Below are positions 9,608 to 24,165 of a stretch of DNA of 51,420 nucleotides, piece after piece. The stretch lies in assembly GCA_030698405.1 (NCBI GenBank), contig JAUYMU010000066.1:1-51420 (forward strand), written 5' to 3'. Source of the stretch: Bacteroidota bacterium. Its GTDB lineage: Bacteria; Bacteroidota; Bacteroidia; Bacteroidales; Prolixibacteraceae. The notes under the pieces are model-generated. The model did no database searches, was not told where the DNA came from, and saw nothing but the letters and a program-made list of their open reading frames with translations. A program made the translations under genes and the position numbers. Position 1 is the stretch's first letter. Every line of letters begins with the position of its first letter.

Positions 9608-11320
9608 ATGACTATGAGATTTGTTGACATGAAAATACGTACAAAACTGATGGGAGCCTTTGGTATCCTGATTTTTATCGGTTTTATTTTAGTTGTGTAT
9701 TCTGTTGCCACCTTGTTGTTTTTCAAGAAGGATATAAGGTCGTTTACCGACGAATTTCTTCCCCAACTCGAACTTTCTTCCAACATAAGTATCCACACAC
9801 AAATGGTTGCTTTTAATATGGAAGGTTTTTTTCTGACAGGTAAACCGGAGTATTACAAATCGGCCAAAGTTGAATTGGAAGCCCTGAAGAAAGATATTGG
9901 GGATGGCGAACAGTTGCTTCTGGAAGCTTCAAGTCTCCCGAAGTTGGAGCAGAAGCTGAGCGAAGCCAGAATTCAGATTCCTCAATATGAACAGAATATG
10001 CTTCTTTCGTACAAAATAAACCAGGATATTTCAGCTTTAAACCAAAAAATTGAAAAGGTATCGGATAAAAAAACAGTAATTGCTGAGCTTGAAGCCAGAA
10101 ATGCAAAATTTCAGGAACTAAGAAAAGCGAATGCTGCAATTTCAGAAAAATTAATTCAAAATTCGAATACGCTGCGAAAATCTGCCGTTGCCTACACAAC
10201 CGAAATAGCAACAAACTTTAACAAAACAATTGCGGCTTCTATTCTTAGCAAATTAATCCTTGCCACAATTTCTTTGTTTTTTGCAATTTATATTGGTTTT
10301 TATATCTCAAGGCTTATCACAGTGCCACTTTTAAAAGGCATCGAATTTGCCCGGAAAATGGCCAAAGGCGATTTGACTGCTGAAATTGATGTCAACCAAA
10401 AAGACGAAATAGGACTGCTTGCATACAATCTGCAAATGATGGGAACCCGTATCAGGGACGTGATCAGCTATGTTTCTTCAACTGCCGATAACCTTGCATC
10501 GGCAAGTCTCGAATTGAGTTCAACTTCGCAGTTTGTTTCGCAGGGTGCTTCTGAACAGGCATCGGCTGCCGAGGAGGTTTCGGCTGCTATTGAAGAAATG
10601 GCTGCCAACATTCAGCAAAACAAGGAAAATGCAAAACAGACAGAACACATTGCAGCAAAGGCTGAAACTGATATTCTCACAGGGAGCGAAAAAGTTACAA
10701 GAACAGTGACTGCAATGCGCGATATTGCCGACAGAATTTCAATTATTGGCGATATTGCATTTCAAACAAATATTCTTGCCCTCAATGCCGCCGTTGAAGC
10801 AGCACGGGCAGGTGAACACGGGCGCGGTTTTGGGGTGGTGGCTTCTGAAGTTGGCAAGCTGGCCGAACGCAGCAAACTTGCTGCTACCGAAATTGACAAG
10901 CTTACCAAGTCAAGTGTTTTCAATGCCGAAGAAGCCGGAAAAATAATGAATGAAATAGTTCCCGATATTCAGAAAACATCGCGGCTTATTCATGAAATTG
11001 CAGCGGCCAATCTGGAGCAAAGTTCGGGCGCCGATCAGATAAATATGGCCATCCAGCAATTGAACATGGTAACACAGCAAAATGCGGCCACGTCAGAAGA
11101 ACTGTCAACCAATGCCGTTGAATTGTCGGCTCAGGCAGAACAACTTAAGGAAACCATTTCATTCTTTAATATAGGTAATTCAGAAGGTGAAACTTTTCCG
11201 AAACAAAAACCTGTAAAACCTCAGCCGCCGAAACGAAATGTTATTCCTGAAAATAAAAAAAAGGTGGTAATCGATCTTGATCTTCCGGATAGTTCGGACG
11301 ATGAATTTGAACGCTTCTAA
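9608..11320 (+). CDS. Methyl-accepting chemotaxis protein
   Basis: A 570-residue transmembrane chemoreceptor. TM1 spans about residues 13-38, a short helical periplasmic domain (four-helix-bundle type) about 40-210, TM2 about 213-233, HAMP about 234-290, and a cytoplasmic coiled-coil signalling domain 300-530. Its hairpin tip has the near-universal [18 protein letters not shown] (around 397-414). Tandem Glu/Gln-rich stretches ([17 protein letters not shown]) are likely methylation sites for CheR/CheB. The C-terminus is a flexible Lys/Pro-rich tail ending in acidic [10 protein letters not shown]; it does not end in the NWETF pentapeptide. The ligand cannot be inferred. Confidence 0.92.
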
Positions 11321-11329
11321 ACTTTAAAG

Positions 11330-12181
11330 GTGAAATCGGAAATTATTCAGATATCGGATGACTTGTTCCTGAAACTGGGGAAAATGCTCACGGAAAGGTA
11401 TGGGATAAAAATGTCCATCGAGAAGAAGATCATGTTTCAGAGTCGGTTACAAAAACGCTTGCGCGAACTGAATATGATTTCATTCGATGAATATGCCATC
11501 AGATTATTGGATTCAAATCTAGGAACGGAAGAATTTTCGGTTTTGGCCGATTTTATTTCTACCAACAAAACAGAATTTTTCAGGGAAAGTGCGCATTTCG
11601 ATTTTCTGACAGATATAGTACTTCCTCAATTTCAGAAACAAATGCCGAATTACAGAATTTCGCAAATGAAGATCTGGAGTGCGGGCTGTTCAAGCGGTCA
11701 GGAGGCATATTCAGTGGCAATCACAATCGAAGAATTCATTCGCACTTCAGGCTGTAATTTGAGCTATTTTATTACTGCAACCGATATTTCGACCCGGATG
11801 CTTAAAGCGGCCAAAGAAGCCATTTATCCGATGGAACAGGTTGATGAAATTTCAATGGAGTTGAAACGAAAATATTTTCTGAAAAGCAAAAGTTCAAATG
11901 ATCAAAAAGTTCGGCTTGTTAAAGAAATTCGCAATAAGGTTCGGTTCGGCTACTTAAATTTAATGGACGATTTGTATGAGCTTAAAGATGATTTCAATGT
12001 TGTTTTTCTGCGGAATACATTGATTTATTTTGAACAGGCAGTGCAAATTGAAATATTGACAAAAGTGCTGGACAGGTTGGTTGACGGTGGGTTCCTATTT
12101 ATTGGGCATTCCGAATCGCTTATTAATATGAACCTGCCAATCAGGTCGATTGCCCCGAGTGTATATGTTAAAAAAATATAA
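11330..12181 (+). CDS. cheR: Chemotaxis protein methyltransferase CheR
   Basis: A 283-residue SAM-dependent methyltransferase acting on MCP glutamates. N-terminal helical CheR_N domain (about 10-75), then the catalytic domain with SAM motif WSAGCSSGQEAYSVAI (about 115-130), ITATDIS and the terminal strand VFLRNTLIYFE and FIGHSESL. The start is GTG at 11330, 9 nt after the MCP stop; no ATG lies nearby in frame. Confidence 0.93.
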   Translation: MKSEIIQISDDLFLKLGKMLTERYGIKMSIEKKIMFQSRLQKRLRELNMISFDEYAIRLLDSNLGTEEFSVLADFISTNKTEFFRESAHFDFLTDIVLPQFQKQMPNYRISQMKIWSAGCSSGQEAYSVAITIEEFIRTSGCNLSYFITATDISTRMLKAAKEAIYPMEQVDEISMELKRKYFLKSKSSNDQKVRLVKEIRNKVRFGYLNLMDDLYELKDDFNVVFLRNTLIYFEQAVQIEILTKVLDRLVDGGFLFIGHSESLINMNLPIRSIAPSVYVKKI

Positions 12182-12185
12182 GTCT

Positions 12186-13073
12186 ATGAGTTATTCCGGA
12201 AATAAAAGTGAAAATGAGATGGAAAATTGCCGAAAGCAGCTTTCACAACTTCAATCTGAAAATGATGAATTACTCAGGAATCTTCATAAAGTCAACGAAA
12301 AACTTCGGGATTCAGAGCGATTCAAAGGTCATTTTATCAGCAATATTACCAATGAAATCGTCAACCCGTTTGCAAGTGTTCTTGCTTTGGCCGGAAACAT
12401 TCAGCAACTGAACGAAGGTCAAATGGGCACCGCCCACCGTATGGCTGAACTAATTTTCGACGAAGCTTTTCACCTCGATTTTCAGTTGAAAAATATTTTT
12501 GCGGCTGCTGGCAACGAAGCTGGTATGGATGAAATTAAATTGTCAAGTTTCAGTATAAAGGATTTAAGCGACCACCTGAACCAATATTTCAGCAAGCAGT
12601 TGAAGAAAAAGAGAATCAGGCTGTTGATAAGTTTTATAAATGAATCAGAACCAGACGAATCGCTCATGTTTTTATCAGACAGGGAAAAACTGGATTTGAT
12701 ACTTAAAAACCTGATCAGCAATTCAATAAAATTCAGTCACGACGATTCAACCATTGAGATTGTGTTCATTTTTAGTAACAGGATTCTATCGGTGGAGGTT
12801 TCTGATCATGGGAAAGGCATCGTGCCTGATAACCAGAAGATTATATTTGATCGTTTCAAACAATTGGATGAAAAGATCAATTCCATAAATACAGGTCATG
12901 GGCTGGGTTTATCAATCGTTTTGGCTTATGCCAATTTGTTGGGCGGAACAGTGAACATCAATGATAATTTTGACGGAGGCATAAGGATAACTGTTTCTAT
13001 TCCTGAAAGCGCCGAAACAAATGACTGGGATGATCTGGAAGGGTTTATTCTTGATTCGGAAACGAGCTACTAA
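12186..13073 (+). CDS. Histidine-kinase-like protein with Asn in place of the phospho-acceptor His
   Basis: A 296-residue cytoplasmic protein: coiled coil (about 10-47), HisKA-like helices (about 48-115) and HATPase_c (about 155-285). The ATP site looks intact: N box LILKNLISNSIKFS, G1 SDHGKGI, F box region FDRFKQL, G2 GHGLGLSIV. In the HisKA X-region the usual S-H-E-[IL]-R-x-P reads T-N-E-I-V-N-P, putting Asn56 where the phosphorylated His should be. It could be a phosphatase, an ATP-binding scaffold or a decayed kinase. ATG at 12186 is chosen because the longer frame overlaps cheR. It sits between cheR and cheD, its stop overlapping the cheD start. Confidence 0.82.
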   Translation: MSYSGNKSENEMENCRKQLSQLQSENDELLRNLHKVNEKLRDSERFKGHFISNITNEIVNPFASVLALAGNIQQLNEGQMGTAHRMAELIFDEAFHLDFQLKNIFAAAGNEAGMDEIKLSSFSIKDLSDHLNQYFSKQLKKKRIRLLISFINESEPDESLMFLSDREKLDLILKNLISNSIKFSHDDSTIEIVFIFSNRILSVEVSDHGKGIVPDNQKIIFDRFKQLDEKINSINTGHGLGLSIVLAYANLLGGTVNINDNFDGGIRITVSIPESAETNDWDDLEGFILDSETSY

Positions 13074-13561
13074 TGAGCAACGTCCGTCAAATGAAACATT
13101 TTCTTCATCCTTCAACGATATGGATAAGCAAAGAGCCGCAATGGGTAACAACCATTCTCGGTTCGTGTGTATCGGTATGTTTGTTCGACAAGAAAAAATG
13201 CATTGGCGGGATCAATCATTTTATGCTTCCCTATTGGAATGGCGAAGGACTGGAATCACCGAGATACGGAAATGTGGCAATTGCCCAATTATTACAAAAA
13301 ATGCTTGACTTTGGCGTAAAAAAAGAAGACATTGTATGTAAAATTTTTGGCGGGGCTGAATTACTTACTGAACAAGTATCCGTTTTTAATGTTGGGCGTA
13401 GAAATATCGAATTGGCACATAAGTTTATTTCAGAATTGGGGATTCCGGTGACCAGTTCGAGTACAGGTGGAAAACTGGGTCGGAAAATTCATTTTAATAC
13501 CGGAACCGGTGAGGTGCTGCAAAAGTACCTGGTTAAAAACAATCAAAATGAAGCCAAATGA
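13073..13561 (+). CDS. cheD: Chemoreceptor glutamine deamidase CheD
   Basis: A 162-residue CheD: the catalytic Cys32 lies in LGSCVSVCLFD and His49 in GGINHFMLP, followed by RYGNVAIAQLL and a KIFGGAELL strand. CheD deamidates specific Gln residues on MCPs and can bind CheC or CheY; no CheC gene is in the window. It overlaps the cheB start by four bases (ATGA). Confidence 0.92.
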   Translation: MSNVRQMKHFLHPSTIWISKEPQWVTTILGSCVSVCLFDKKKCIGGINHFMLPYWNGEGLESPRYGNVAIAQLLQKMLDFGVKKEDIVCKIFGGAELLTEQVSVFNVGRRNIELAHKFISELGIPVTSSSTGGKLGRKIHFNTGTGEVLQKYLVKNNQNEAK

Positions 13562-14619
13562 GCAGGAAGATTAAAGTTTTGGTGGTAGATGATTCGGCTA
13601 CAATGCGAATAACATTGACACAGATTTTGAATCAGGATCCGGAGATTGATGTAATCTCAAGTGCGTCTGATCCGTATGATGCAGTAAAGAAAATTGCTGA
13701 AAACCTTCCTGATGTAATTACCCTTGATATTGAAATGCCCCGCATGGACGGGCTGACTTTTCTCTCGAAATTAATGAAACAGCATCCAATTCCGGTGGTC
13801 GTTATTTCATCCAACGCAGGCGAAGGTTCAGAAAAAGGAATTCGCGCACTTAAACTTGGTGCCCGCGAGATAATTACCAAACCTAAACTTTCTACTCCGG
13901 AACAAATGGAGGAATACAGTATTCGGATTACAGATGCAGTAAAGGCAGCGTCGATGACTGAAAGTGTCAGGCTAAAACCCGCAAGGGAAATTTTGGCAGA
14001 TTCCGTCCAGTCGAAAGTTAATCCGGCTGCATTTACCCCTGTTTCCAATCTGCATTCCGATAAATTTATTTTAATTGGCGCTTCTACCGGAGGAACCGAG
14101 GTTATATCGAAAATTCTGAAAAATATCAGAACCGATTTGCCTGGAATTATGATCGTTCAGCACATGCCCGGAGAATTTACCGGAGCCTTCGCCAAGCGAT
14201 TAAATCAGGAGTGCAAACTCAATGTGAAGGAAGCAGAACAGGGCGATATCGTGCAACAGGGCAGCGTATATATTGCAAATGGGTTCAATCATTTACTTTT
14301 GGTAAAAGAGAATGGGCAGCACAAATGCAAGCTGGAGATGGGACCATTGGTCAACAGACACCGTCCTTCGGTTGAAGTTTTGTTTCATTCGGCAATCAAT
14401 TTTCCGGCAAAAAATATTGTTGCCATAATACTCACAGGAATGGGTTCGGATGGTGCAAAAGGTTTGCTCGAACTGCATGATGCCGGGGCTATGACCATTG
14501 CCCAGGATGAAAAATCGGCAGTCATTTTTGGAATGCCAAAAGAAGCGATCATGCTAAATGCCGCAAAAAAGATACTAAATCCGGAAGAAATAATTAACTG
14601 GTTAAATACAGCTTTTTAG
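13558..14619 (+). CDS. cheB: Chemotaxis methylesterase CheB
   Basis: A 353-residue protein-glutamate methylesterase with an N-terminal receiver domain (acidic pair in VVDDSA, phospho-acceptor Asp57 in TLDIEMPRMDG) and a C-terminal esterase domain with the triad Ser176 (GASTGGTE), His202 (VQHMPGEFT) and Asp298 (GMGSDGAKG). It removes methyl groups added by CheR to the MCP and is activated by CheA. Confidence 0.95.
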   Translation: MSRKIKVLVVDDSATMRITLTQILNQDPEIDVISSASDPYDAVKKIAENLPDVITLDIEMPRMDGLTFLSKLMKQHPIPVVVISSNAGEGSEKGIRALKLGAREIITKPKLSTPEQMEEYSIRITDAVKAASMTESVRLKPAREILADSVQSKVNPAAFTPVSNLHSDKFILIGASTGGTEVISKILKNIRTDLPGIMIVQHMPGEFTGAFAKRLNQECKLNVKEAEQGDIVQQGSVYIANGFNHLLLVKENGQHKCKLEMGPLVNRHRPSVEVLFHSAINFPAKNIVAIILTGMGSDGAKGLLELHDAGAMTIAQDEKSAVIFGMPKEAIMLNAAKKILNPEEIINWLNTAF

Positions 14620-14622
14620 GTT

Positions 14623-16206
14623 ATGAAAGAAAATACACAACCTTCAAAAATACTGATTGTTGACGATGTTCAACTGAACCTTGACCTGATGAAGGATATA
14701 TTATCAGATCAGGGTTATTTGATTGCTACCGCGATAAATGGCAAATCTGCCATAGCAAAAGCAAAAGCGCATAAATTCGATTTGATTTTACTTGATATTG
14801 TTTTGCCTGATATTGATGGATTTGAAGTTTGTTCTCACCTTAAAGCCAATCCTCAAACGCATGATATTCCCATAATTTTCTTAACCGCAAAAAAAGAAAA
14901 AGACATTATCACCAAAGGATTTCAGCTCGGTGCAGTCGATTATATTCCAAAACCGTTCAGTAAAGAAGAACTTCTGGCAAGGGTAAACTTGCATCTTACC
15001 CTTCGCAAAACACAGGATGAGCTCATCCATTCAAAAGAATTGGCCGAAGCGGCTGCGAAAGCAAAAGCAATTTTTCTGGCCAACATGTCGCACGAAATCC
15101 GCACTCCAATGAACGGAATTGTTGGCATGGTAGATATATTGAAAAGAACCAACCTCACCAAAGAACAGCTTGAATATTTGGATATTATAGAAATATCCGG
15201 CGCCAATCTGTTGATAATTATTAACGATGTTCTTGATTTTTCAAAAATTGAAGCCGGGCAGATCACGTTCGAAAGTATCCGCTTCAATTTGAGCAATGAA
15301 GTGGGCGAAGTCATTAAATTGCTCCGATACAAAGCCGATCAAAAAGGATTGGAATTCAGCTATTTGCTGGCTCCTGAAGTTCCTGAAATGTTGGTTGGTG
15401 ATCCGCTGCGTTTAAAGCAGGTATTAATCAATCTGTGCAATAATTCAATCAAATTTACCACAGCCGGATATGTGAAGATCAATGTCGAAACGATCCTGAT
15501 CAATGAAGATAAAGTTTTCCTGAAATTTGAAGTTCAGGATACCGGAATTGGGATTTCACCTGAAAATCAATCTAAATTGTTTAAATCATTCTCACAGGCC
15601 GAAGTATCAACAACCCGAAAATTCGGAGGAACCGGCCTTGGACTTGCCATTTCAAAAAACCTGGTTCAACTCATGAATGGAAATATTGGAATAAAAAGCG
15701 AGGAAGGAAACGGAGCTGTTTTTTATTTTGATTGTGAATTTGGCATATCGAAGCAAAGTATAATTGTTCCTGATGAGAAGAAATTAAATCCATCAAAAAT
15801 AAGTGTTAAAAAACTTAAAATTCTTTTGGCAGAAGACAATGTTATTAACCAAAAAGTCGCTACCTTAAATCTGGTGAAAATGGGTCACTGTGTAAGTGTG
15901 GCGACTGATGGATTTCAGACTGTCGAAATGTTTAAAAATGAGGCATTTGATGCAATATTGATGGACATTCAAATGCCCGGAATGGATGGAGTGGAGGCAA
16001 CAACAATCATTCGTGAATGGGAAGAAAACAACAATGTTGTGAACCGGATTCCAATTATTGCGATGACGGCCAATACACTTCAAAGCGATAAAGCGATTTT
16101 TATGTCGGTAGGAATGGATGATTATTTAGGAAAACCTTTTAATAATGATGATTTAGTTCGTGTGATTGAACGTATTAACCAACAATTGGAGTTTAGAAAT
16201 ATTTAA
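14623..16206 (+). CDS. Hybrid sensor kinase: receiver, HisKA, HATPase, receiver
   Basis: A 527-residue soluble hybrid kinase. Receiver 1 (about 8-122, Asp58 in LLDIVLPDIDG), HisKA with intact phospho-acceptor His157 in FLANMSHEIRTPMNG, HATPase_c (about 260-380; N box NLCNNSIKFT, G2 GGTGLGLAI) and receiver 2 (about 398-520, Asp448 in LMDIQMPGMDG). No transmembrane or PAS sensor domain is present, so input probably comes by phosphotransfer to receiver 1. In this operon the CheA/CheY system is the obvious source. That link is inference. Confidence 0.92.
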   Translation: MKENTQPSKILIVDDVQLNLDLMKDILSDQGYLIATAINGKSAIAKAKAHKFDLILLDIVLPDIDGFEVCSHLKANPQTHDIPIIFLTAKKEKDIITKGFQLGAVDYIPKPFSKEELLARVNLHLTLRKTQDELIHSKELAEAAAKAKAIFLANMSHEIRTPMNGIVGMVDILKRTNLTKEQLEYLDIIEISGANLLIIINDVLDFSKIEAGQITFESIRFNLSNEVGEVIKLLRYKADQKGLEFSYLLAPEVPEMLVGDPLRLKQVLINLCNNSIKFTTAGYVKINVETILINEDKVFLKFEVQDTGIGISPENQSKLFKSFSQAEVSTTRKFGGTGLGLAISKNLVQLMNGNIGIKSEEGNGAVFYFDCEFGISKQSIIVPDEKKLNPSKISVKKLKILLAEDNVINQKVATLNLVKMGHCVSVATDGFQTVEMFKNEAFDAILMDIQMPGMDGVEATTIIREWEENNNVVNRIPIIAMTANTLQSDKAIFMSVGMDDYLGKPFNNDDLVRVIERINQQLEFRNI

Positions 16207-16232
16207 AAAATAACCAAATTCAAACTAACCAA

Positions 16233-16637
16233 ATGGATTATAATGACAACAGTTATTTGTGGGAAGGGAAAACAGTTTTGATCGTTGAAGACAACGAAAC
16301 AAGTAATATCTATTTTGAAGCCGCCCTCCGGAAAACAAAATCTCAACTCATATGGGCGAAAAATGGCCTTGAAGCAGTTGAAATTGTTAGAAATAACCAC
16401 ATCGATTTGGTTTTAATGGACATTAATATGCCTAAAATGGATGGAATTGAAGCCACCCGGATTATTAAAACCGAATTCCCATCTATCATTGTTGTTGTTC
16501 AAACTGCGTTTATCCTTTCAGGTGAAGAAAAGTTATGTATGGAAGCCGGATGCGATGAATTTATCACAAAGCCTATTCGGCTGAAGTACCTTCTCGATAC
16601 CATTAATCATTACCTGGCCGCAGTTAAAGAGAAATAA
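16233..16637 (+). CDS. Single-domain response regulator
   Basis: A 134-residue receiver domain with acidic pocket VEDNET, phospho-acceptor Asp63 in LMDINMPKMDG, and conserved Lys in ITKPIR. It closely resembles receiver 2 of the preceding hybrid kinase, suggesting it serves that kinase. It is the last gene of the chemotaxis operon. Its 3' end overlaps the 3' end of the convergent gene by 28 bp. Confidence 0.88.
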   Translation: MDYNDNSYLWEGKTVLIVEDNETSNIYFEAALRKTKSQLIWAKNGLEAVEIVRNNHIDLVLMDINMPKMDGIEATRIIKTEFPSIIVVVQTAFILSGEEKLCMEAGCDEFITKPIRLKYLLDTINHYLAAVKEK

Positions 16638-17836
16638 GCGCCAAATTGTGTCTCTGCATCAGGCTCAACCAATGAAAGAAAACCGGAACTTAGTTTGCCA
16701 TTGCTGATTTTTATTGGATGTTCCAGGATCATATTATCAGCGAATCTTTTAAATTCGCCGCGGGAACCATAATAAAGAACAAATTTTCCTGAAGTGTTAT
16801 CATGAATTTTCTTTTCAATTTGGGTTGTCAGAATTCCCATATTCATCCTGCTGTTTATTTCTATGCAAGGCTGAATTTTCAATCCTTCCTTAGTTCTGTA
16901 AATCATTGCGTCGATACCTAAAAAACCACGGTGCAGTTTCGCAAATACCGAATCTTTCAGGGCTTTTTTTAGCAACAAGGCTGTTGTCCCGATTTTTGTT
17001 TTCATTTCCAAATTTATTCCTGAAATGCCGGATCTTTCTGTTTCTGGATGAATAAAAGTGCATTGATACTGCCCATTCGTATTGGTTTCGAAAACGGAAT
17101 ACCCCAAATATTCAGGTTCATCGTTACTTATTTTAAATTGAAACGAGAAATCCATCACTTTTTCCAGATATGGCTCAGCAATCAGGTATTTCTGTTGATT
17201 AAAAATACCCGAAATCCATTGCCGGTTCGAGGTGTTGAGTGTTTGTTTTCTAATGATCTGGATGCCACGCCCGGAGCTGCTCATGGGCGCTTTCAGTACA
17301 AGCGGAAACTGATTATTTAAAAGTTCTTCAATTCCTTCAATTGTAGTGACTTTGGTTCCAATCAATTCCCGTTCAACGAAAAACTCAATGGGGTTTTGTT
17401 CCAGAAAGTCTGCCAGAAAAAGAAGGGACGTAATTCTTTCAAACAGCGTTTTGTGCCCTTCCTTCCAGCTAAAAACCGGACTTTCACGAAATTCGGGTGA
17501 GCATTTTTCTTTCAGATCTTTGAGGTAAAAGTGGGCAGCCGGACTCCAGCCCCACGGCAAAATTGAGCCAATAGTTTCTGCTTTTCCTGAAATTAATTCT
17601 TTCAATGGACAGAATTCAGGCATTTCAAATCCGGCATCAGTCATTTTCAGTATAAATTCTTTGGATGGTATCTTTTCAGTTAGTACAAAATCGCCTGAAG
17701 TACCGAAAACAAAGGGTAAAACCGAACAATCCTGCTCAAATTCGCGCAGCAGGCGGGGCGGCATATAACTGAAAGAGCCATTGGCAACTGCTAATTCACA
17801 GGTGGGATTGAAATAGAAAACATCAGAATTGGGCAT
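16610..17836 (-). CDS. Conserved protein of unknown function, ATP-grasp-like
   Basis: A 408-residue soluble protein. I do not recognise a named family. It starts MPNSDVFYFNPTCELAVANG. The middle has an ATP-grasp-like pattern: FPLVLKAPMSSSGRGIQII (strand plus Gly-rich loop, about 180-198), IAEPYLEKVMDFSFQF, and an acidic/basic end-site GFLGIDAMIYR...PCIEINSRMNMG. The E-x-N-x-R metal motif fits carboxylate-amine ligase-type ATP-grasp enzymes. The substrate is unknown. ATG at 17836 is preferred over 17860 because a -7 element covers 17858-17865. It is convergent with the chemotaxis operon. Confidence 0.7.
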   Translation of the reverse strand: MPNSDVFYFNPTCELAVANGSFSYMPPRLLREFEQDCSVLPFVFGTSGDFVLTEKIPSKEFILKMTDAGFEMPEFCPLKELISGKAETIGSILPWGWSPAAHFYLKDLKEKCSPEFRESPVFSWKEGHKTLFERITSLLFLADFLEQNPIEFFVERELIGTKVTTIEGIEELLNNQFPLVLKAPMSSSGRGIQIIRKQTLNTSNRQWISGIFNQQKYLIAEPYLEKVMDFSFQFKISNDEPEYLGYSVFETNTNGQYQCTFIHPETERSGISGINLEMKTKIGTTALLLKKALKDSVFAKLHRGFLGIDAMIYRTKEGLKIQPCIEINSRMNMGILTTQIEKKIHDNTSGKFVLYYGSRGEFKRFADNMILEHPIKISNGKLSSGFLSLVEPDAETQFGAYFSLTAAR

Positions 17837-17857
17837 ATATAAAACCTGGATGAACTG

Positions 17858-17865
17858 CAAATATA
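17858..17865 (-). promoter_or_regulatory. Bacteroidota -7 element (TATATTTG) for the ATP-grasp-like gene
   Basis: On the reverse strand TATATTTG fits TAnnTTTG 22 bp before the chosen ATG. No -33 TTG was seen at the usual spacing. Confidence 0.5.
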
Positions 17866-17918
17866 AAACCCATCGATGTACTTTTTAATGATTTAACGAA
17901 AAATAAACACTATTTGGT

Positions 17919-17948
17919 TTTGATTTGTGGATTTTGAAGTTACATTTG
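17919..17948 (+). promoter_or_regulatory. Promoter of the sulfite-reduction operon
   Basis: TTTG (17919-17922), an 18-nt spacer and TACATTTG (17941-17948) match the Bacteroidota promoter pattern. A start near 17955 gives a leader of about 210 nt before the first structural gene, all of it taken up by the attenuator elements listed below. Confidence 0.75.
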
Positions 17949-17986
17949 CAGAGTCAAAATAATAACAGACCGTAAAGTATTTTTCT

Positions 17987-18088
17987 ATGTGTAATTTTTC
18001 ATCTGAAATAGTAAAATTGAATTCTACCGGCAACATGTATATGTGTATGTGGTTAAATTCTCAATTTCAGAAGATAGAAAATTTGTAG
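17987..18088 (+). CDS. Putative 33-residue leader peptide with a Met-Tyr-Met-Cys-Met-Trp run
   Basis: An ATG-started frame of 33 codons lies about 30 nt after the predicted transcript start. It begins MCNFSSEIV and carries MYMCMW at codons 17-22, with the second Cys codon at 18044-18046; it ends at TAG 18086-18088. Cys and Met are the end products of the pathway encoded downstream. The codons lie just before an RNA segment able to prevent the terminator, as in trp or his leaders. The peptide itself probably has no function beyond being translated. It has no Shine-Dalgarno sequence, which is normal in this phylum. Ribosome stalling is inferred. Confidence 0.6.
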   Translation: MCNFSSEIVKLNSTGNMYMCMWLNSQFQKIENL

Positions 18089-18125
18089 GTAGATTTTACC
18101 ATGATATTTATAAGCTCTTCTGGAA
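18065..18125 (+). promoter_or_regulatory. Predicted antiterminator pairing in the sulfite-operon leader
   Basis: TTTCAGAAGA (18065-18074), inside the last codons of the leader peptide frame, can pair with TCTTCTGGAA (18116-18125) over 10 bp with one G-U pair. The latter is most of the 5' arm of the terminator, so the two structures exclude each other. A ribosome paused at the Cys codon 18044-18046 would leave the 18065 arm free; one at the stop codon would cover or disturb it. Confidence 0.6.
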
Positions 18126-18143
18126 CCCGGAAGGGCTTTTTTT
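18112..18143 (+). terminator. Intrinsic terminator in the leader of the sulfite-reduction operon
   Basis: AAGCTCTTCTGG (18112-18123), a three-base loop and CCGGAAGGGCTT (18127-18138) form a 12-bp stem with two G-U pairs; the last stem bases begin a run of seven T (18137-18143). It lies between the promoter and the first structural gene, 21 bp before its ATG, so it can only act as an attenuator, not as an end-of-operon terminator. No gene ends upstream on this strand. Confidence 0.85.
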
Positions 18144-18164
18144 ATAACTATAAGTAAACAACAA

Positions 18165-18395
18165 ATGGCAGAGAAATCATACAGGAGCATTGCAAAATCG
18201 GTATCATGGCGCACGATCGGAACACTTGATACCATTCTGATTTCGATGCTGATTACCGGGAAACTCGACTTGGCTCTTGCAATCGGAGGAGTGGAAGTAT
18301 TTACCAAAATGATACTTTATTATTTTCACGAAAGAACCTGGAACAGAATAAAATTCGGGCGCATCAAAAATACAGGAAGTGATTATCAGATTTAA
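18165..18395 (+). CDS. DUF2061 membrane protein
   Basis: A 76-residue protein matching the DUF2061 pattern: KSVSWRTIGTLDTILISMLITG (first hydrophobic segment about 14-32), a second segment about 35-52, and the conserved end YYFHERTWNRIKFGR. DUF2061 proteins are small two-helix inner-membrane proteins often encoded with sulfate-assimilation genes. A role in anion or sulfur-compound handling is suspected but unproven. It is the first gene behind the attenuator. Confidence 0.88.
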   Translation: MAEKSYRSIAKSVSWRTIGTLDTILISMLITGKLDLALAIGGVEVFTKMILYYFHERTWNRIKFGRIKNTGSDYQI

Positions 18396-18410: not shown

Positions 18411-18917
18411 ATGAAAAACTATTTACCCATTTCAATTGATATTTCGGATGAAAAAATACTGATTATTGGTGGCGGACAAAGCGCATTAAAGAAAATCAGG
18501 ATTTTACAACGTTTTGGCGCCAACCTCGAAGTTGTGGCAGAAAACATCATTGATGAGATCCTGTCAAGCGGGATCAACTGCTACGAAAAAAGCTACGAAA
18601 AGAGTGACCTGCAAGGCTACCTGATGCTTTATTCGTGTACCAACAATGAAGAACTCGACCGCCAGATTGCCATTGACGGACGGGAAGCAGGTGTTCTGGT
18701 TAACATTCACGATAAACCTTCGCTTTGCCAGTTTGTTTCACCAGCTATCTACAAAGATGGAAATATCAATGTTGCGGTAAGTTCAAATGCGCAGGATGTT
18801 TATGAATCCATCCGTCTGCGCAATCTGATTCAGGAATTCCTGGAAAAGGAAAAGGAGAAGAAAGGCACAGATGCAGACACAGGCAAAAAGAAAGATGAAG
18901 ATGAAGGTGCTGCATAA
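18411..18917 (+). CDS. Precorrin-2 dehydrogenase / sirohydrochlorin ferrochelatase
   Basis: A 168-residue Met8/CysG-N-type protein. It has an NAD-binding start LIIGGGQSALKKIRIL (about 16-31), the YSCTNNEELDRQIA segment, and LVNIHDKPSLCQFVSPAIYKDGNINVAVSS in the region around 100-130 that forms the bifunctional active site. It oxidises precorrin-2 and inserts iron to make sirohaem for the sulfite reductase encoded two genes on. It is shorter than Met8 because the C-terminal helical part is reduced to a Lys/Glu-rich tail, so full chelatase activity is less certain. Confidence 0.88.
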   Translation: MKNYLPISIDISDEKILIIGGGQSALKKIRILQRFGANLEVVAENIIDEILSSGINCYEKSYEKSDLQGYLMLYSCTNNEELDRQIAIDGREAGVLVNIHDKPSLCQFVSPAIYKDGNINVAVSSNAQDVYESIRLRNLIQEFLEKEKEKKGTDADTGKKKDEDEGAA

Positions 18918-18973: not shown

Positions 18974-20749
18974 ATGACCATACAATTAAGTCCATTAAAT
19001 GATCAACAGTTAGGCGCTTTGTCGAGCCTTTCTGCCGGATTGAACCGGGAACAATTACTCTGGATAAACGGCTATTTTCAGGGATTGCTGGCATCATCCT
19101 CCGGTAATCATCCCGTCAATGCTGCAGTTCAGGCAAAAAGCAATAAAAAACTGACAATATTATACGGCACTCACACCGGACGAAGCAAAACCATTGCAGG
19201 AAAACTGTCTGAAAACCTCGCCAGCAATGGCGTTGAAGTAAATTCCATTGCACTTGATGAGTATAAAACACGGCAGCTTGCTTCAGAAACCAATGTGGTT
19301 TTCATCGTCAGCACACATGGAGAGGGCGAACCTCCGGCAATGGCCGAAGATTTTCACGCGTTCATTACCGGAAAACGCTCCCCAAAATTGCCCGGACTAA
19401 ACTTTGCAGTGGTTGCTTTGGGAGATAAAAGTTACAAACTATTTTGCAAAACCGGTATCGATATCGACCTTTCGCTTACCCATGCAGGAGCACAAGCCAT
19501 ACTGCCAATTTTGAAACTTGATGTCGATTTTGAAGACGATGTTGATCGCTGGATCAACCAGTTCGCCAGTGTTTTTGCTGAAACTGAAGCAAGTTCAAAT
19601 GTGTTTGAAAGTGTCAGTACTACTGCTAAAGTGCAGGAATACACCCGAAGAAATCCTTTTCAGGCAACTGTACTCGATAAGGTAAAAATTACCGGACGTG
19701 ATTCGGACAAGGAAGTCTATCATGTTGAGTTATCGCTTGAAGGCTCCGGAATAACTTATGAACCGGGCGATTCGGTCGGAATTTTGGCCAGTAATCCGCC
19801 AGCCTCGGTTGATGGGATTTTGAAATTCAAAGGATTCGATGGTTCAGAAACAGTGACAATTAAGGAGGGTGAATTTTCAATTCAGGAGGCACTGTTAAAT
19901 TATCTGGAAATTACCGTTTTAACCCGCGATGTCATTCAGCAATACTTTGAGAAAACAGCGGATCCAAAGCTTCGGGAAGTAATTGAAAGTGAAGAAAAAT
20001 TAGACCAATATTTATACGGTCACGATGTTTTGGACTTGTTGGAGGAATTTCCGGCAGATCTGACTGCGCAGGAATTGGTTCAGGTTCTACGTAGTTTTCC
20101 TGCCCGATTGTATTCCATTTCATCGAGCCAACTGGCAGTAGGCGAAGAAGTTCACATTACCGTTTCGAGGGTTCGCTATTCAAGAAATGGAAGGGAACGT
20201 TCCGGCGCATGTTCTACATATTTGGCCGATCAAATTGAACCCGATTCGTTTGTTTCCGTATTTATTGAGAAAAACCCGGCATTTAAACTACCTGAAAGTG
20301 GAGAAACTCCGGTTATTTTGGTGGGCGCGGGTACAGGAGTAGCGCCATATCGTGCATTTTTGCAGCAACGCGAAGCCAATAACCAGAAAGGAAAAACCTG
20401 GTTGTTCTTTGGAGAACGACGGTTCAGTTCTGATTTTTTATACCAGATTGAATGGCAGAAATTGATCAAAGACGGTTATCTGGAAAAAATTGACGTGGCC
20501 TTTTCGCGCGATCAGGAGCAAAAAATTTATGTGCAGCACCGACTAATTGAAAAGCAAAAGGAAATCTATGAATGGCTGAACAAAGGTGCAAGTATTTATC
20601 TTTGCGGAGATATGAAACAGATGGCCCGCGATGTTCAGAAAGCATTGCTGCAAATTTTCGAAACACAAGGCGGAATGAGCGAAGAAAAAGCGCTGGAATT
20701 TCTGAAAAAATTGAAAAAGGAAAAACGGTTTCAAACGGATGTATATTAA
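18974..20749 (+). CDS. cysJ: Assimilatory sulfite reductase, flavoprotein subunit
   Basis: A 591-residue diflavin reductase. Flavodoxin domain about 56-195 (FMN loop YGTHTGRSKTIAG, then VSTHGEGEPP), FAD-binding and connecting domain about 215-430 (RLYSISSS at the isoalloxazine site), and NAD(P)H domain about 440-591 (VGAGTGVAPYRAF, FFGERR, YLCGDMKQMA). It moves electrons from NADPH through FAD and FMN to the haemoprotein subunit. The length and domain order are standard for CysJ. It is 10 bp upstream of cysI. Confidence 0.95.
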   Translation: MTIQLSPLNDQQLGALSSLSAGLNREQLLWINGYFQGLLASSSGNHPVNAAVQAKSNKKLTILYGTHTGRSKTIAGKLSENLASNGVEVNSIALDEYKTRQLASETNVVFIVSTHGEGEPPAMAEDFHAFITGKRSPKLPGLNFAVVALGDKSYKLFCKTGIDIDLSLTHAGAQAILPILKLDVDFEDDVDRWINQFASVFAETEASSNVFESVSTTAKVQEYTRRNPFQATVLDKVKITGRDSDKEVYHVELSLEGSGITYEPGDSVGILASNPPASVDGILKFKGFDGSETVTIKEGEFSIQEALLNYLEITVLTRDVIQQYFEKTADPKLREVIESEEKLDQYLYGHDVLDLLEEFPADLTAQELVQVLRSFPARLYSISSSQLAVGEEVHITVSRVRYSRNGRERSGACSTYLADQIEPDSFVSVFIEKNPAFKLPESGETPVILVGAGTGVAPYRAFLQQREANNQKGKTWLFFGERRFSSDFLYQIEWQKLIKDGYLEKIDVAFSRDQEQKIYVQHRLIEKQKEIYEWLNKGASIYLCGDMKQMARDVQKALLQIFETQGGMSEEKALEFLKKLKKEKRFQTDVY

Positions 20750-20759
20750 ACCCAATACA

Positions 20760-22460
20760 ATGAGCGATACAATCAATTGGAGTGAATTGTCAGAACTGGA
20801 AAAGATTAAATACGATAGCAACTATTTGCGGGGCACGCTGGTAGAAAGCCTGGCCGACCCGATAACGGGTTCAATTGCTTTTGCCGACACACAAATATCA
20901 AAGTTTCACGGAATGTACCAGCAATTCGACCGTGATCTGGAGAAAGAACGCAAACGCCAAAAGCTGGAACCTGCGTATTCGTTTCTTATTCGTGTCAGGA
21001 TTCCGGGTGGGGTAGTGAGCCCGTCGCAATGGTTGAAAATGGATTCAATTTCGGAACAATATGCCAACCATACGCTGAAACTGACTACCCGTCAGACGTT
21101 TCAACTGCATGGGGTAATTAAATCCAACCTGAAGAAAACCATTCAGGCGATGAATGATAGTTTGATGGATACCATTGCTGCCTGCGGCGATGTTAACCGA
21201 AATGTGATGTGCCATCCGAACCCGGCAGAATCGCCTTTGCACGCTGAAATGTGCGATACAGCCCGCAGAATCAGCGAACATTTGCTGCCATCAACTTCTG
21301 CCTACCACGAAATCTGGCTCGACAAAAAATTGATTGCGGATAGCAAAAAGGATGTTGAACCAATTTATGGCGACCGGTATCTTCCGCGTAAATTTAAAAT
21401 CGCTGTAGTACTTCCGCCTTACAACGACAGCGATGTGTTTTCGCAGGATTTGGGTTTTATTGCCATTGTTGAAAATGGTAAAATTGTTGGTTACAATGTG
21501 ACTGTTGGTGGAGGATTGGGTTCAACTTTCGGCATTCCTGAAGCCTATCCGCGATTGGCCGATGTAATTGGATTTTGCCTTCCGGAACAGGTGCTTGAAG
21601 TGTCGGAAAAAGTGTTGCTCGTTCAGAAGGACAACGGAAACAGGCAAAACCGCAAGCTTTCCAGAATGAAATATACCGTCGACAAACATGGCCTCGACTG
21701 GTTCAAAAAGGAAGTGGAGAAATACCTTGGGTATGAATTTCAGGAAGCAAAACCATACGTTTTTACCCGCAATGGCGACCGGCTTGGCTGGAAAAAAGGC
21801 ACAGATTCGAAATGGAATTTGACTCTTTTTATCGAAGGAGGACGCGTTGCCGACAAAGGGGATTACAAAATGAAATCTGCTTTGCGCGAGGTGGCTCAAA
21901 CAATTGCCGGTCAATTTATCCTGACGGGAAACCAGAACGTGATTATCGCAAATGTGACTTCCGAAGAGAAGAAGAAAATAAGCCTGATTTTAAAAGAAAA
22001 CGGTGTTTTACCCGGTGAAATTTCGGGCCTTCGTCAAAATTCTATTGCTTGTGTCGCACTGAATACCTGCGGTTTGGCTTTTGCCGAAGCTGAAAGGTAT
22101 CTGCCATCGCTGATTACCAAAATCGAAACAATTCTCGATCAGCATGGATTGTTTAAAGAAGAAATTGTGATCAGGATGACCGGTTGCCCGAATGGTTGCG
22201 GAAGGCCGTATCTGGCTGAAATTGGCTTTGTCGGTAAATCGGAAGGTCACTACAACCTCTATTTGGGCGGAAATTTTATTGGAACCCGACTGAATACCTT
22301 GTACAAGGAGACACTTACAGAAGACGAAATCCTGGCCGAATTGCAGCCCATCATTGCCGATTACGCCGCAAACCGGACTGAAGGTGAAAAGCTGGGTGAT
22401 TTTGTGATTCGCAAACAATACGTGAAAGCAACATTGAAAGGCTCAGATTTTAGGCATTAA
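20760..22460 (+). CDS. cysI: Assimilatory sulfite reductase, sirohaem subunit
   Basis: A 566-residue haemoprotein that reduces sulfite to sulfide with six electrons. The Fe4S4-sirohaem cysteines are Cys431 and Cys437 (CVALNTC) and Cys476 and Cys480 (CPNGC). Two nitrite/sulfite reductase ferredoxin-like halves are visible (LKLTTRQTFQLHGV near 107; IEGGRVADKG near 363). ATG at 20760 is chosen over an upstream in-frame ATG that lies inside cysJ. Confidence 0.95.
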   Translation: MSDTINWSELSELEKIKYDSNYLRGTLVESLADPITGSIAFADTQISKFHGMYQQFDRDLEKERKRQKLEPAYSFLIRVRIPGGVVSPSQWLKMDSISEQYANHTLKLTTRQTFQLHGVIKSNLKKTIQAMNDSLMDTIAACGDVNRNVMCHPNPAESPLHAEMCDTARRISEHLLPSTSAYHEIWLDKKLIADSKKDVEPIYGDRYLPRKFKIAVVLPPYNDSDVFSQDLGFIAIVENGKIVGYNVTVGGGLGSTFGIPEAYPRLADVIGFCLPEQVLEVSEKVLLVQKDNGNRQNRKLSRMKYTVDKHGLDWFKKEVEKYLGYEFQEAKPYVFTRNGDRLGWKKGTDSKWNLTLFIEGGRVADKGDYKMKSALREVAQTIAGQFILTGNQNVIIANVTSEEKKKISLILKENGVLPGEISGLRQNSIACVALNTCGLAFAEAERYLPSLITKIETILDQHGLFKEEIVIRMTGCPNGCGRPYLAEIGFVGKSEGHYNLYLGGNFIGTRLNTLYKETLTEDEILAELQPIIADYAANRTEGEKLGDFVIRKQYVKATLKGSDFRH

Positions 22461-22503: not shown

Positions 22504-23325
22504 ATGGAGATAAAAAATAAATCAATATCAATTCTTGGATGCGGATGGCTCGGAGTGCCGCTTGCAAAACATTTTCTGGAAATAGGTTTTTCTGTGAAAG
22601 GTTCGGTTACTTCTGAAGAAAAGTTCGGATTATTAAGAGATGCAGGAATTTTGCCTTTCCGCTTGGTTTTGTCTGATACAGAAGTCATTCTGGATGATCC
22701 GGATTTTTTCAAGTGCGATGTATTGGTCATTTCCATTCCTCCACGCCGAATTGAAGGGATTGAGCAGGTTTTTCCGTCGCAGATCAGACGTTTGATCCCA
22801 TTTATCCTGAAGGCTGGAATTCAGAAAGTTATTTTCATTTCATCAACCTCCGTTTATCCCGACCAAAACCAACTTGCCCGTGAAAATGAAATTTTGGTTC
22901 CTGACAAAGCGAGTGGGCGGGCATTGGTCGAAGCAGAGAATTTATTGAGAGAACAATCCGGATTTAAAACCACCATCATTCGGTTTGGCGGCTTAATTGG
23001 CGCCGATCGCAATCCTGCACGTTTTCTCCTGAAATCGACTCAGCCAATAGCCAACGCGCCGGTTAACCTGATTCATCAGGACGATTGTATTGGAGTAATT
23101 TCAGCAATTATTAAGCAGGAACTTTGGGGCGAAACACTGAATGCCTGTTGCCCTGAACATCCGATGAAAAAAGACTTCTACGAAAAAGCAGCCATTCAAT
23201 CCGGTATAGCAGTTCCGGTTATTTCCGATGAACTTGCAGCCTTTAAAACCATCGACAGCAGTAAACTTATCCGGTTGCTCAATTATCAGTTTATCTACTC
23301 AAGTCCGATGGATTATCTGGACTAA
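22504..23325 (+). CDS. NAD(P)-binding epimerase-like protein (YeeZ-type)
   Basis: A 273-residue Rossmann protein of the atypical extended SDR type. N-terminal SISILGCGWLGVPLAKHF gives the G-x-G-x-x-G nucleotide loop; LVISIPPRR and VIFISSTSVYPD follow, and ENLLREQ lacks the usual Y-x3-K spacing, as in YeeZ/YbjT-like members. It lies between cysI and the SUMT gene in the operon. Its substrate is unknown; a link to sirohaem or sulfur metabolism is suggested only by location. Confidence 0.72.
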   Translation: MEIKNKSISILGCGWLGVPLAKHFLEIGFSVKGSVTSEEKFGLLRDAGILPFRLVLSDTEVILDDPDFFKCDVLVISIPPRRIEGIEQVFPSQIRRLIPFILKAGIQKVIFISSTSVYPDQNQLARENEILVPDKASGRALVEAENLLREQSGFKTTIIRFGGLIGADRNPARFLLKSTQPIANAPVNLIHQDDCIGVISAIIKQELWGETLNACCPEHPMKKDFYEKAAIQSGIAVPVISDELAAFKTIDSSKLIRLLNYQFIYSSPMDYLD

Positions 23326-23389: not shown

Positions 23390-23406
23390 CCCCTCCTTCG
23401 GAGGGG
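23390..23406. repeat. CCCCTCC hairpin of dispersed-repeat type
   Basis: CCCCTCC (23390-23396) and GGAGGGG (23400-23406) form a perfect 7-bp stem with a 3-base loop, followed by two copies of GGGGGAGGCT (with T/A variation after) before the SUMT ATG. Elements of this kind are common between Bacteroidota genes, so this is more likely a REP-like insertion than a regulator. It breaks the otherwise tight spacing of the operon. Confidence 0.6.
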
Positions 23407-23439
23407 TTGGGGGAGGCTTTTAGATTGGGGGAGGCTATT

Positions 23440-24165
23440 ATGATTTCCATAGTTGGCGCGGGTCCCGGCGATCCTGAATTACTGACGGTAAAGGCGTTGA
23501 AACGCATTCAGGAAGCCGATTGCATTTTACACGATGCATTGGTGAGCGACGAAATTTTGAACCTTTCAAGGCCTGAAGCTCAACGGATTTATGTCGGCAA
23601 ATTGTATCAGGATGGACAGGATCAGACCGATCGTCAGGAATGGATCAATCAGCTAATTATTGAATTGGCCGAAAAAGGACAAAAAGTGGTTCGCCTGAAA
23701 TCAGGAGATCCGATGATTTTTGGGCGCGGAGCCGAAGAAATCCGGTTTTGTATTGAAAATAACCTTGACTACGAAGTAATTCCCGGAGTAACCTCCGCGC
23801 TTGGCGCTGCTTCTTTGTATGGAATTCCACTTACCGAACGTGGCAAAAACAGCATGGTGCTTTTTGGTACCGGCCATTATTGCGAAGGCGATTTCTGCGA
23901 TCTCGAAACATTCGTCTCTGTCCTGAATTCAGGTTCCCCGGTTGTTTTTTTTATGGGATTGAATAAACTTGTAAAACTGGCAAACCGTCTTATGGACTAT
24001 GCCGTTTCTCCCGAAATAAAAGTTCAGATACTAAGTAAAGTGTCTCAACCCGATGCCTGTACTTTTGAAGGTACGCTCGGAAACATTGAACAGCTGATGG
24101 CCAGTGAAAAACCGCCCATGCCAGCATTGGTGATAATTGGCAAAAATGCGGAAAGGCTTAGGTAA
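23440..24165 (+). CDS. cobA: Uroporphyrinogen-III C-methyltransferase
   Basis: A 241-residue SUMT that methylates uroporphyrinogen III twice, giving precorrin-2 for sirohaem. Motifs: VGAGPGDPELLTVKA at the start, YVGK, GDPMIFGRG (about 91-99), PGVTSALGAASLYGIPLTERG. The start is ATG 23440: the frame is open for 21 more codons, but these come from the repeat element and are unlike any SUMT. With the precorrin-2 dehydrogenase and CysIJ it completes sirohaem supply in one operon. Confidence 0.92.
   Translation: MISIVGAGPGDPELLTVKALKRIQEADCILHDALVSDEILNLSRPEAQRIYVGKLYQDGQDQTDRQEWINQLIIELAEKGQKVVRLKSGDPMIFGRGAEEIRFCIENNLDYEVIPGVTSALGAASLYGIPLTERGKNSMVLFGTGHYCEGDFCDLETFVSVLNSGSPVVFFMGLNKLVKLANRLMDYAVSPEIKVQILSKVSQPDACTFEGTLGNIEQLMASEKPPMPALVIIGKNAERLR

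Follow-up and report, generated by a model that had tools for sequence, protein, structure and literature searches.

The window analysed here, positions 1 to 51,420 of contig JAUYMU010000066.1 (assembly GCA_030698405.1, 51,420 nucleotides, Bacteroidota, Prolixibacteraceae), carries an operon for sulfite reductase and sirohaem synthesis, preceded by a short open frame and an intrinsic terminator. This raises the question of how transcription past the terminator is controlled. An earlier, sequence-only reading had proposed a ribosome-mediated attenuator for sulfite reduction, governed by Cys (or Met) codons in a leader peptide. The comparative data indicate that the operon is very probably controlled by a trp-type ribosome-mediated transcription attenuator, set by charged tRNA-Cys and probably tRNA-Met. 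The genes concerned are as follows.

18165..18395, + strand: DUF2061 membrane protein, first structural gene (PF09834, E 1.4e-22)
18411..18917, + strand: sirohaem synthase N-terminal domain protein, precorrin-2 dehydrogenase type (TIGR01470, 94.3 bits, cut-off 62.3)
18974..20749, + strand: cysJ, sulfite reductase flavoprotein (TIGR01931, 718.9 bits, cut-off 668.15)
20739..22460 (start approximate), + strand: cysI, sulfite reductase haemoprotein (TIGR02041, 807.7 bits, cut-off 756.55)
22504..23325, + strand: NAD-binding epimerase-like gene (PF01370, 21.3 bits, cut-off 20.9)
23434..24165, + strand: uroporphyrinogen-III C-methyltransferase, sirohaem pathway (TIGR01469, 239.5 bits, cut-off 185)

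The epimerase-like gene is probably co-transcribed with the operon. For the methyltransferase, the mechanical frame start (23377) is probably too early and 23434 is the likely start; a GC-rich hairpin (23392-23416) lies between this start and the epimerase-like gene.

Upstream of the DUF2061 gene the following leader elements were recognized.

17919..17948, + strand: promoter-like sequence, presumably of the Bacteroidota type (TTTG at 17919-17922, 18 nt, TACATTTG at 17941-17948)
17987..18088, + strand: leader frame MCNFSSEIVKLNSTGNMYMCMWLNSQFQKIENL with stop, 33 codons (ATG 17987, TAG 18086-18088), predicted to be translated
18002..18009, + strand: segment 1, TCTGAAAT, partner in the predicted fold ATTTCAGA (18064-18071)
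18035..18052, + strand: control codons ATG TAT ATG TGT ATG TGG (MYMCMW, codons M17-W22)
18065..18074, + strand: segment 2, TTTCAGAAGA, 5' half of the putative antiterminator, within the frame, covarying with segment 3
18116..18125, + strand: segment 3, TCTTCTGGAA, 3' half of the putative antiterminator, mostly identical with the 5' arm of the terminator
18112..18143, + strand: intrinsic terminator, 12-bp stem (18112-18138) and seven T (18137-18143)

The promoter, the 33-codon frame, MYMCMW, segment 2 and the terminator with its seven T had all been placed correctly by the sequence-only reading; the distance from the second Cys codon (18044-18046) to position 18065, given there as 19 nt, is 18 nt. 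The assignment of 17919-17948 to the Bacteroidota promoter type follows a consensus that we take to apply here, and the pattern TTTG-N17..21-TAnnTTTG was found upstream of 26 of the 62 SiR-class leaders with sufficient upstream sequence (0.15 expected from shuffles). With the extra helix between 18002-18009 and 18064-18071, the region could adopt a layout of helices 1:2 plus 3:4, or else 2:3.

Taken by itself, the window gave mostly marginal values. The terminator hairpin folds with a z of -4.2, and it has the most pairs of the eight terminators found in the region, where 7.9 were expected from shuffles. The 2:3 pairing taken alone reached p 0.047 against synonymous-codon shuffles, at least two Cys occur by chance in about 4% of 33-codon frames (p 0.04), and the 1:2 duplex was not above synonymous-codon shuffles (p 0.37). 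No stretch of eight residues in the window frame contains more than one Cys, Trp or Tyr standing at positions that are Cys in relatives; judged by its sequence, this leader is a poor copy of the switch. Since the window statistics are marginal alone, the elements are judged real because they are conserved: Cys core, antiterminator segment and terminator were found again in the majority of the relatives examined. None of the 4227 Rfam families matched the window at the gathering score; seven matches at E<=5 in 17900-18200, Phe_leader included, were all under it. Neither Pfam (E<=1) nor NCBIfam (cut-off) gave a match to the leader peptides scanned.

DUF2061 is present in 68 of 140 Prolixibacteraceae genomes, and the upstream sequence was examined at 73 DUF2061 places (30 loci of this search with the window among them, three from named records and 40 others), a few of which are duplicates. 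One place, L149, has the leader of the window itself in another genome. At 57 of the 73 places a frame with at least two Cys is followed by a terminator. Among the other 16 places, L003 has the same leader with one Cys. At L112, L113, L118, L126, L133 and L134, DUF2061 lies behind other genes whose operon start carries the leader (L218, L230, L219, L216 and L217 and, for L126, a match upstream in G062 to R1, a covariance model of the leader). DUF2061 is also situated behind other genes at L129 and L141-L143, while no leader precedes L145-L147 and L150, which represent a distant second copy, and at L148 the gene is matched in part. The leader is present in all six named Prolixibacteraceae records (L031, L032, L033, L034, L035 and L037); the name of the family is taken from these records, which have loci in common with it. 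The rule used for calling leaders, a Cys/Met-rich short frame at most 100 nt before a terminator, missed L033, which was seen by eye. Applied as a control to 80 cysI loci, the rule returned 14 places, namely five named-Prolixibacteraceae leaders and nine in other bacteria. Two of these nine are L089, where 10 bp can pair 40 nt ahead of the stop, and L069, which lies before a cysJ-like gene and pairs over 6 bp.

R1 matched 106 of the 140 family genomes at E<=0.1; among the matches listed, 72 places in 71 genomes reached E<=1.2e-8, many of them being sequences from which the model was built. Reading of 40 R1 places (L232 repeats L139, and L233 repeats L229) showed that the leader is absent at two in the window's own genome, L214 and L215. 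The final set comprised 92 distinct leaders: 64 SiR, nine OsmC, seven CysK, four carbonic anhydrase/OsmC, four MetYX, two DUF4395 and two CysDN. It is not a blind sample, most non-SiR classes having come from R1 matches. The frame chosen was in each case the most Cys/Met-rich near the terminator, and pairing played no part in the choice. A terminator in 92 of 92 leaders is no evidence, because the scan required one.

Leaders built alike, some of them with different hairpin sequences, also stand before OsmC-type genes, cysK alone, cysDN, DUF4395, carbonic anhydrase and metY genes. The OsmC-type genes are followed by cysK or by Cys/Met-metabolism genes, carbonic anhydrase is accompanied by a second OsmC-type gene, and metY by a metX-like gene. 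One example per class was checked by Pfam or NCBIfam; the metX-like protein, truncated at the end of the locus, stayed below the cut-off. The genes downstream of the leaders are mostly genes of sulfur assimilation. The proposal of an attenuator for sulfite reduction is supported for the cysJI/sirohaem operon, and the reach of the device is wider, since several sulfur operons in the family carry it.

For two leaders still included in the counts of 92, genes of the class under which they are filed were not found downstream (L202, MetYX; L224, carbonic anhydrase/OsmC). L202 is a Met/Cys-rich orphan leader (about 201-314) with a terminator, with no forward frame of at least 60 aa in the next 2 kb; the only long frame downstream runs in the reverse direction. 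At L224 (3798-3917, - strand) a group II intron domain lies just after the Cys leader, which the intron may have separated from its operon.

The predicted leader peptides are strongly enriched in the two sulfur amino acids. After the start codon, Cys makes up 12.5% and Met 16.6% of residues in the 92 leaders, compared to 1.0% and 2.3% in the window genes. At least one Cys is present in 91 of 92, the exception being a Met-run leader. In the SiR class, the M-C-M-C core columns hold Met in 60/64 and 63/64 leaders and Cys in 55/64 and 63/64, and at least three Cys fall within eight residues in 55 of the 64. The order of the core run is variable (MMMCCC, CCMCC, MCMCMC, CCCC). The leader frames, whose translation is predicted, thus contain control codons for the amino acid that is the product. 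Outside the core, differences were distributed 34/28/38% over the codon positions, and single-change codons were synonymous in 209 cases and not in 520. This test is weak, so no conserved peptide is claimed there. Cys was encoded by TGT 294 times and by TGC 58 times in the 92 leaders, versus 26 and 40 in the window genes (Fisher p 8e-13, genomes mixed); genus g1 alone (17 leaders) had 42 TGT and 15 TGC. The bias may reflect a preference for the slower, wobble-read codon, or RNA composition.

Pairing between the tail of the frame and the 5' arm of the terminator (2:3) is found in most of these leaders. At least eight contiguous pairs occur in 85 of 92, whereas shuffled tails lead one to expect about 5.5; the seven with fewer are L019, L026, L139, L228, L207, L222 and L212. 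In L139 the Cys run lies at the stop codon and there is no clear segment 2. The mean 2:3 duplex of the SiR class has -13.5 kcal/mol compared to -7.7 kcal/mol for synonymous-codon shuffles, and p<=0.05 against such shuffles was reached individually by 26 of 64 SiR leaders and by 45 of 92 over all classes. The 1:2 duplex beat these shuffles (p<=0.05) in 45 of 64 SiR-class leaders. Counted from the control codons, segment 1 is 25-35 nt further upstream, so that a ribosome stalled on these codons would not cover it. When tails and arms were combined across classes (up to 15 per class), the arms of the own class were best in five of seven. For CysDN tails the own arms tied with MetYX arms, and for MetYX tails the own arms came second (-12.3 versus -12.7 kcal/mol with CysDN arms).

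Covariation was followed in alignment A2, which holds 62 of the 64 SiR leaders (60 distinct); left out were L139, with no clear segment 2, and L225, which has a different hairpin core. In the 60 distinct rows, 96.4% of the cells of the terminator (3:4) and 97.2% of those of 2:3 can pair, compared to 38-65% when the partners are slid by one to three columns. Cells changed on both sides numbered 44 for 3:4 (shuffle mean 15.5) and 37 for 2:3 (14.9), and for both helices the cell counts and the covariation score were above all 500 shuffles, although the rows are related and these shuffle counts are therefore no probabilities. Column pair 11-67 alternates between G-C (30) or G-U (8) and A-U (17), and column pair 4-74 between G-C or G-U (40) and U-G or U-A (17). 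Counted as pairs changed on both sides, neither helix was above its shuffles (3:4, five versus 3.9, 114/500; 2:3, three versus 2.5, 208/500), so the covariation signal rests on few positions. As the sequence-only reading had anticipated, relatives keep a short frame with Cys near its end together with covarying antiterminator/terminator pairs; the opposite outcome, a frame and Cys codons left unconserved while the hairpin varies, was looked for and did not occur.

The spacing between control codons and segment 2 is consistent with a ribosome acting as the switch. Measured from the first base of the last control Cys codon, segment 2 follows after a median of 15-17 nt in every Cys class (SiR range 3-23); the median is 12 nt in MetYX, and the window itself has 21 nt. 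Given the size of the ribosome footprint, a spacing of 15-17 nt roughly matches the distance at which segment 2 just escapes a ribosome whose A site holds the last Cys codon. From the end of segment 2 to the stop codon the class medians are 0-15 nt (range -3 to 29), with 11 in SiR, where a ribosome at the stop would cover segment 2 in part, and 15 in OsmC, where it would hardly cover it. In the window, a ribosome positioned at the stop would extend back as far as about 18068-18071, over four to seven of the ten bases of segment 2.

On these predicted structures the control would work as follows. When Cys (or Met) is short, the ribosome would stall in the core with its front edge before segment 2; the free segment 2 would pair with segment 3 as it emerges, the terminator would be blocked and the operon transcribed. 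When Cys and Met are sufficient, the ribosome would move on to the stop codon, its rear lying over roughly half of segment 2, the terminator would form and transcription would end near 18143. If the frame is not translated at all, 1:2 and 3:4 would form and transcription would end too. Helix 1:2 may in addition serve as a pause hairpin, by which the polymerase would stay abreast of the ribosome, or as a lock hairpin. The piece 18060-18130, before the 3' arm of the terminator is made, folds with 2:3 (-13 kcal/mol, z -0.98), and 18057-18143 favours the terminator (-20.4 kcal/mol); the choice between antiterminator and terminator would thus be kinetic, as in trp.

In a close variant of this explanation the mechanism is the same, the Met codons are passive and tRNA-Cys alone counts. 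It overlaps with the main explanation and deserves serious weight, if somewhat less than even: Cys is the common element of the leaders, the Cys runs of L203 and L210, which precede cysK, contain no Met, and the Cys-rich frames of other families are Cys runs with little Met. Yet the core Met columns are conserved like those of Cys (63/64, 60/64), Met-run leaders exist before metY, and sulfide feeds both cysteine and methionine. The wording "Cys or Met" in the sequence-only reading was therefore apt. A ribosome stalled by its own nascent Cys/Met-rich peptide, which would bind copper, another metal or a thiol-redox signal as ligand, with no shortage of charged tRNA involved, seems improbable. 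Alternating M-C residues do resemble metal ligands. A nascent-protein copper sensor is also reported in the available text of PMC9973294; however, the genes downstream are mostly for sulfur assimilation and not for metal handling, the run order is free, as codons rather than a binding site would give, and Met runs accompany a methionine gene.

Attenuation by way of translation or Rho, in place of the intrinsic terminator, is similarly improbable for the leaders considered here. Cys-rich frames without a strong terminator do occur in other families (L289, L307, L308, L312, L339 and L341), and mycobacterial cys leaders are described without conserved hairpins in the accessible part of PMC1262725, but in Prolixibacteraceae the terminator arms covary mutually and with the antiterminator. 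Least credible, to the point of being nearly negligible, is an ordinary intergenic terminator next to a chance open frame. The Cys count expected by chance in about 4% of 33-codon frames, and terminator-like sites in the region that are no commoner than in shuffles, would allow it for the window alone, whereas the frame, the core and both helices are conserved. Moreover, the upstream gene (16610-17860, - strand) points away, so that there is no transcript of that gene to terminate here. The attenuator set by charged tRNA-Cys, and probably by tRNA-Met, is thus the preferred reading.

The trp, his and leu attenuators of enterobacteria have helices 1:2, 2:3 and 3:4, a leader peptide rich in the product and a terminator before the first gene. 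The window shares with them the competing helices, as predicted, the leader peptide and the position of the terminator. It differs in the amino acid that would be sensed and in the place of the control codons, which E. coli trp has within segment 1 and the window between segments 1 and 2.

Cys codons in such a role are also known from other phyla. For uORFC-8-2, before cysS in Rhodobacterales, ribosome-mediated attenuation by charged tRNA-Cys has been predicted, and according to the available text of PMC8632094 the gene is preceded by a short frame, in which Cys codons are conserved, and by a terminator stem with its U run, as in the window. In contrast to the layout found here, its tandem Cys codons, usually at positions 14-15, lie inside the first stem; it controls cysteinyl-tRNA synthetase, cysS being the only gene named in that text, and it belongs to another phylum. 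The polycysteine leaders of mycobacteria likewise are short frames with a Cys run before cys genes (accessible part of PMC1262725), and the title of Canestrari 2020, cited in the available text of PMC13236596, speaks of cysteine-responsive attenuators. They differ in acting by translation attenuation, as PMC13236596 has it in that text, and in having a Cys run near the stop codon and no conserved hairpins as far as PMC1262725 is accessible, whereas the type in the window has a conserved terminator and a core about a dozen codons before the stop. Within the phylum, the passages available of PMC9723704 point strongly to attenuation by leader peptides at amino-acid operons of Flavobacterium psychrophilum; Cys/Met operons and sulfite reductase are not named in these passages.

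Among the papers listed in a literature search, with subscription papers and supplements outside its reach, there was no Cys or Met attenuator for Bacteroidota. The sequence-only reading likewise knew of no described Cys attenuator of this architecture there; attenuation by Cys codons and a terminator has, however, been predicted elsewhere (PMC8632094, available text). Cys-codon attenuators are thus known from other groups. What is new, as far as we have seen, is their presence in this phylum and before these operons, the core that mixes Cys and Met, and the extent of the set within the family.

Met-run leaders were found before metY in three genomes (L366, L367 and L368), each with two attenuators in series. 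In the example MKTMMMHMIAMMMLGQS followed by MYFKYSVENSMSMMMAMFMMMWMRYYCAEC, each frame has its own terminator. The metY gene is present in 127 of 140 family genomes; in the best 30 matching loci, three have Met-run leaders and three others Cys-run frames lacking a terminator, the metY query having been taken from one of the three Met-run genomes. L378, L383 and L395, also in the family, have frames with CCC or CCCC runs and an end of the RMC type; a Cys/Met-metabolism gene follows, with no terminator in front of it.

In its own genome the leader of the window is the only copy found. R1 gave one strong match there (E 1.9e-14), the next being at E 0.023, and 13 matches up to E 10; the other 12 had no Cys leader pairing with a terminator. 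The CCPC frame of L152 is followed after 78 nt by a terminator, but no pairing between the two was found. No Cys leader with a terminator was found before six PALP, two OsmC and seven PF01053 genes of this genome. The two-Cys frames at those genes (L331, L332, L335 and L336) were taken for chance; a terminator just before one cysK (L236) was set aside as well, as it follows the upstream frame and has no Cys frame.

Searches beyond the family were made in the order and the phylum. R1 matched 31 of 393 order-level genomes at E<=0.01; 30 loci were retained, and by the rule none of the 29 besides the window had a Cys-run leader pairing with a terminator. The pattern ATGTGYATGTGYTGY occurred in 33 of 393 genomes, with the reversed pattern, used as control, matching in about 20 genomes too; the 30 of 33 places inspected held one leader with a terminator (L283, same family) and, in another family, L289, a Cys-rich frame without a strong terminator before a Cys/Met-metabolism gene. 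DUF2061 was present in 36 of 393 order-level genomes. The 29 new loci inspected contained no Cys leader with a terminator and, by the rule, four Cys-rich frames, of which L307, L308 and L312 were kept (two other families, with matches in one of three f38 genomes and in two of three f65 genomes) and L323 was dismissed. At phylum level DUF2061 was found in 32 of 385 genomes, and among 29 new loci inspected, L339 and L341 (another class; two of three f135 genomes matched) have frames ending in Cys runs before DUF2061, followed by a gene that by eye is cysH-like. These Cys-rich frames, which have no strong terminator after them, may work by translation or Rho. In the genomes sampled, thinly so elsewhere, the terminator type was seen only in Prolixibacteraceae.

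A broader interpretation, which we put forward tentatively and hold to be rather less than an even bet, is that Prolixibacteraceae, and more loosely other Bacteroidota, control much of their sulfur regulon by means of small sensors that are translated. The hairpins would share one logic, differ in part of their sequence from operon to operon, and stand before cysJI/sirohaem, cysDN, cysK, OsmC-type and metY genes, with alternating M-C cores reading Cys and Met and with two serial Met-run attenuators for methionine genes. If this is true, transcription would be tightly linked to translation in Bacteroidota, where Shine-Dalgarno sequences play hardly any part. The window offers a specific control circuit for sulfite assimilation that is open to experiment, in a phylum for which the literature search listed none. 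The leader would be a compact natural reporter, both for the question of whether one leader can read cysteine and methionine together and for the ribosome-polymerase coupling in Bacteroidota that attenuation of this type requires. The occurrence of one logic with different hairpin sequences before different sulfur operons makes it a good case for studying the spread or the repeated origin of attenuators.

On the other side of the leader, the divergent gene (16610-17860, - strand) had no Pfam match at E<=0.001 and appears by eye to be of the ATP-grasp type. Beyond it, 9608-16637 contains what by eye is a chemotaxis/two-component block (receptor, CheR-, CheD- and CheB-like proteins and hybrid kinases).
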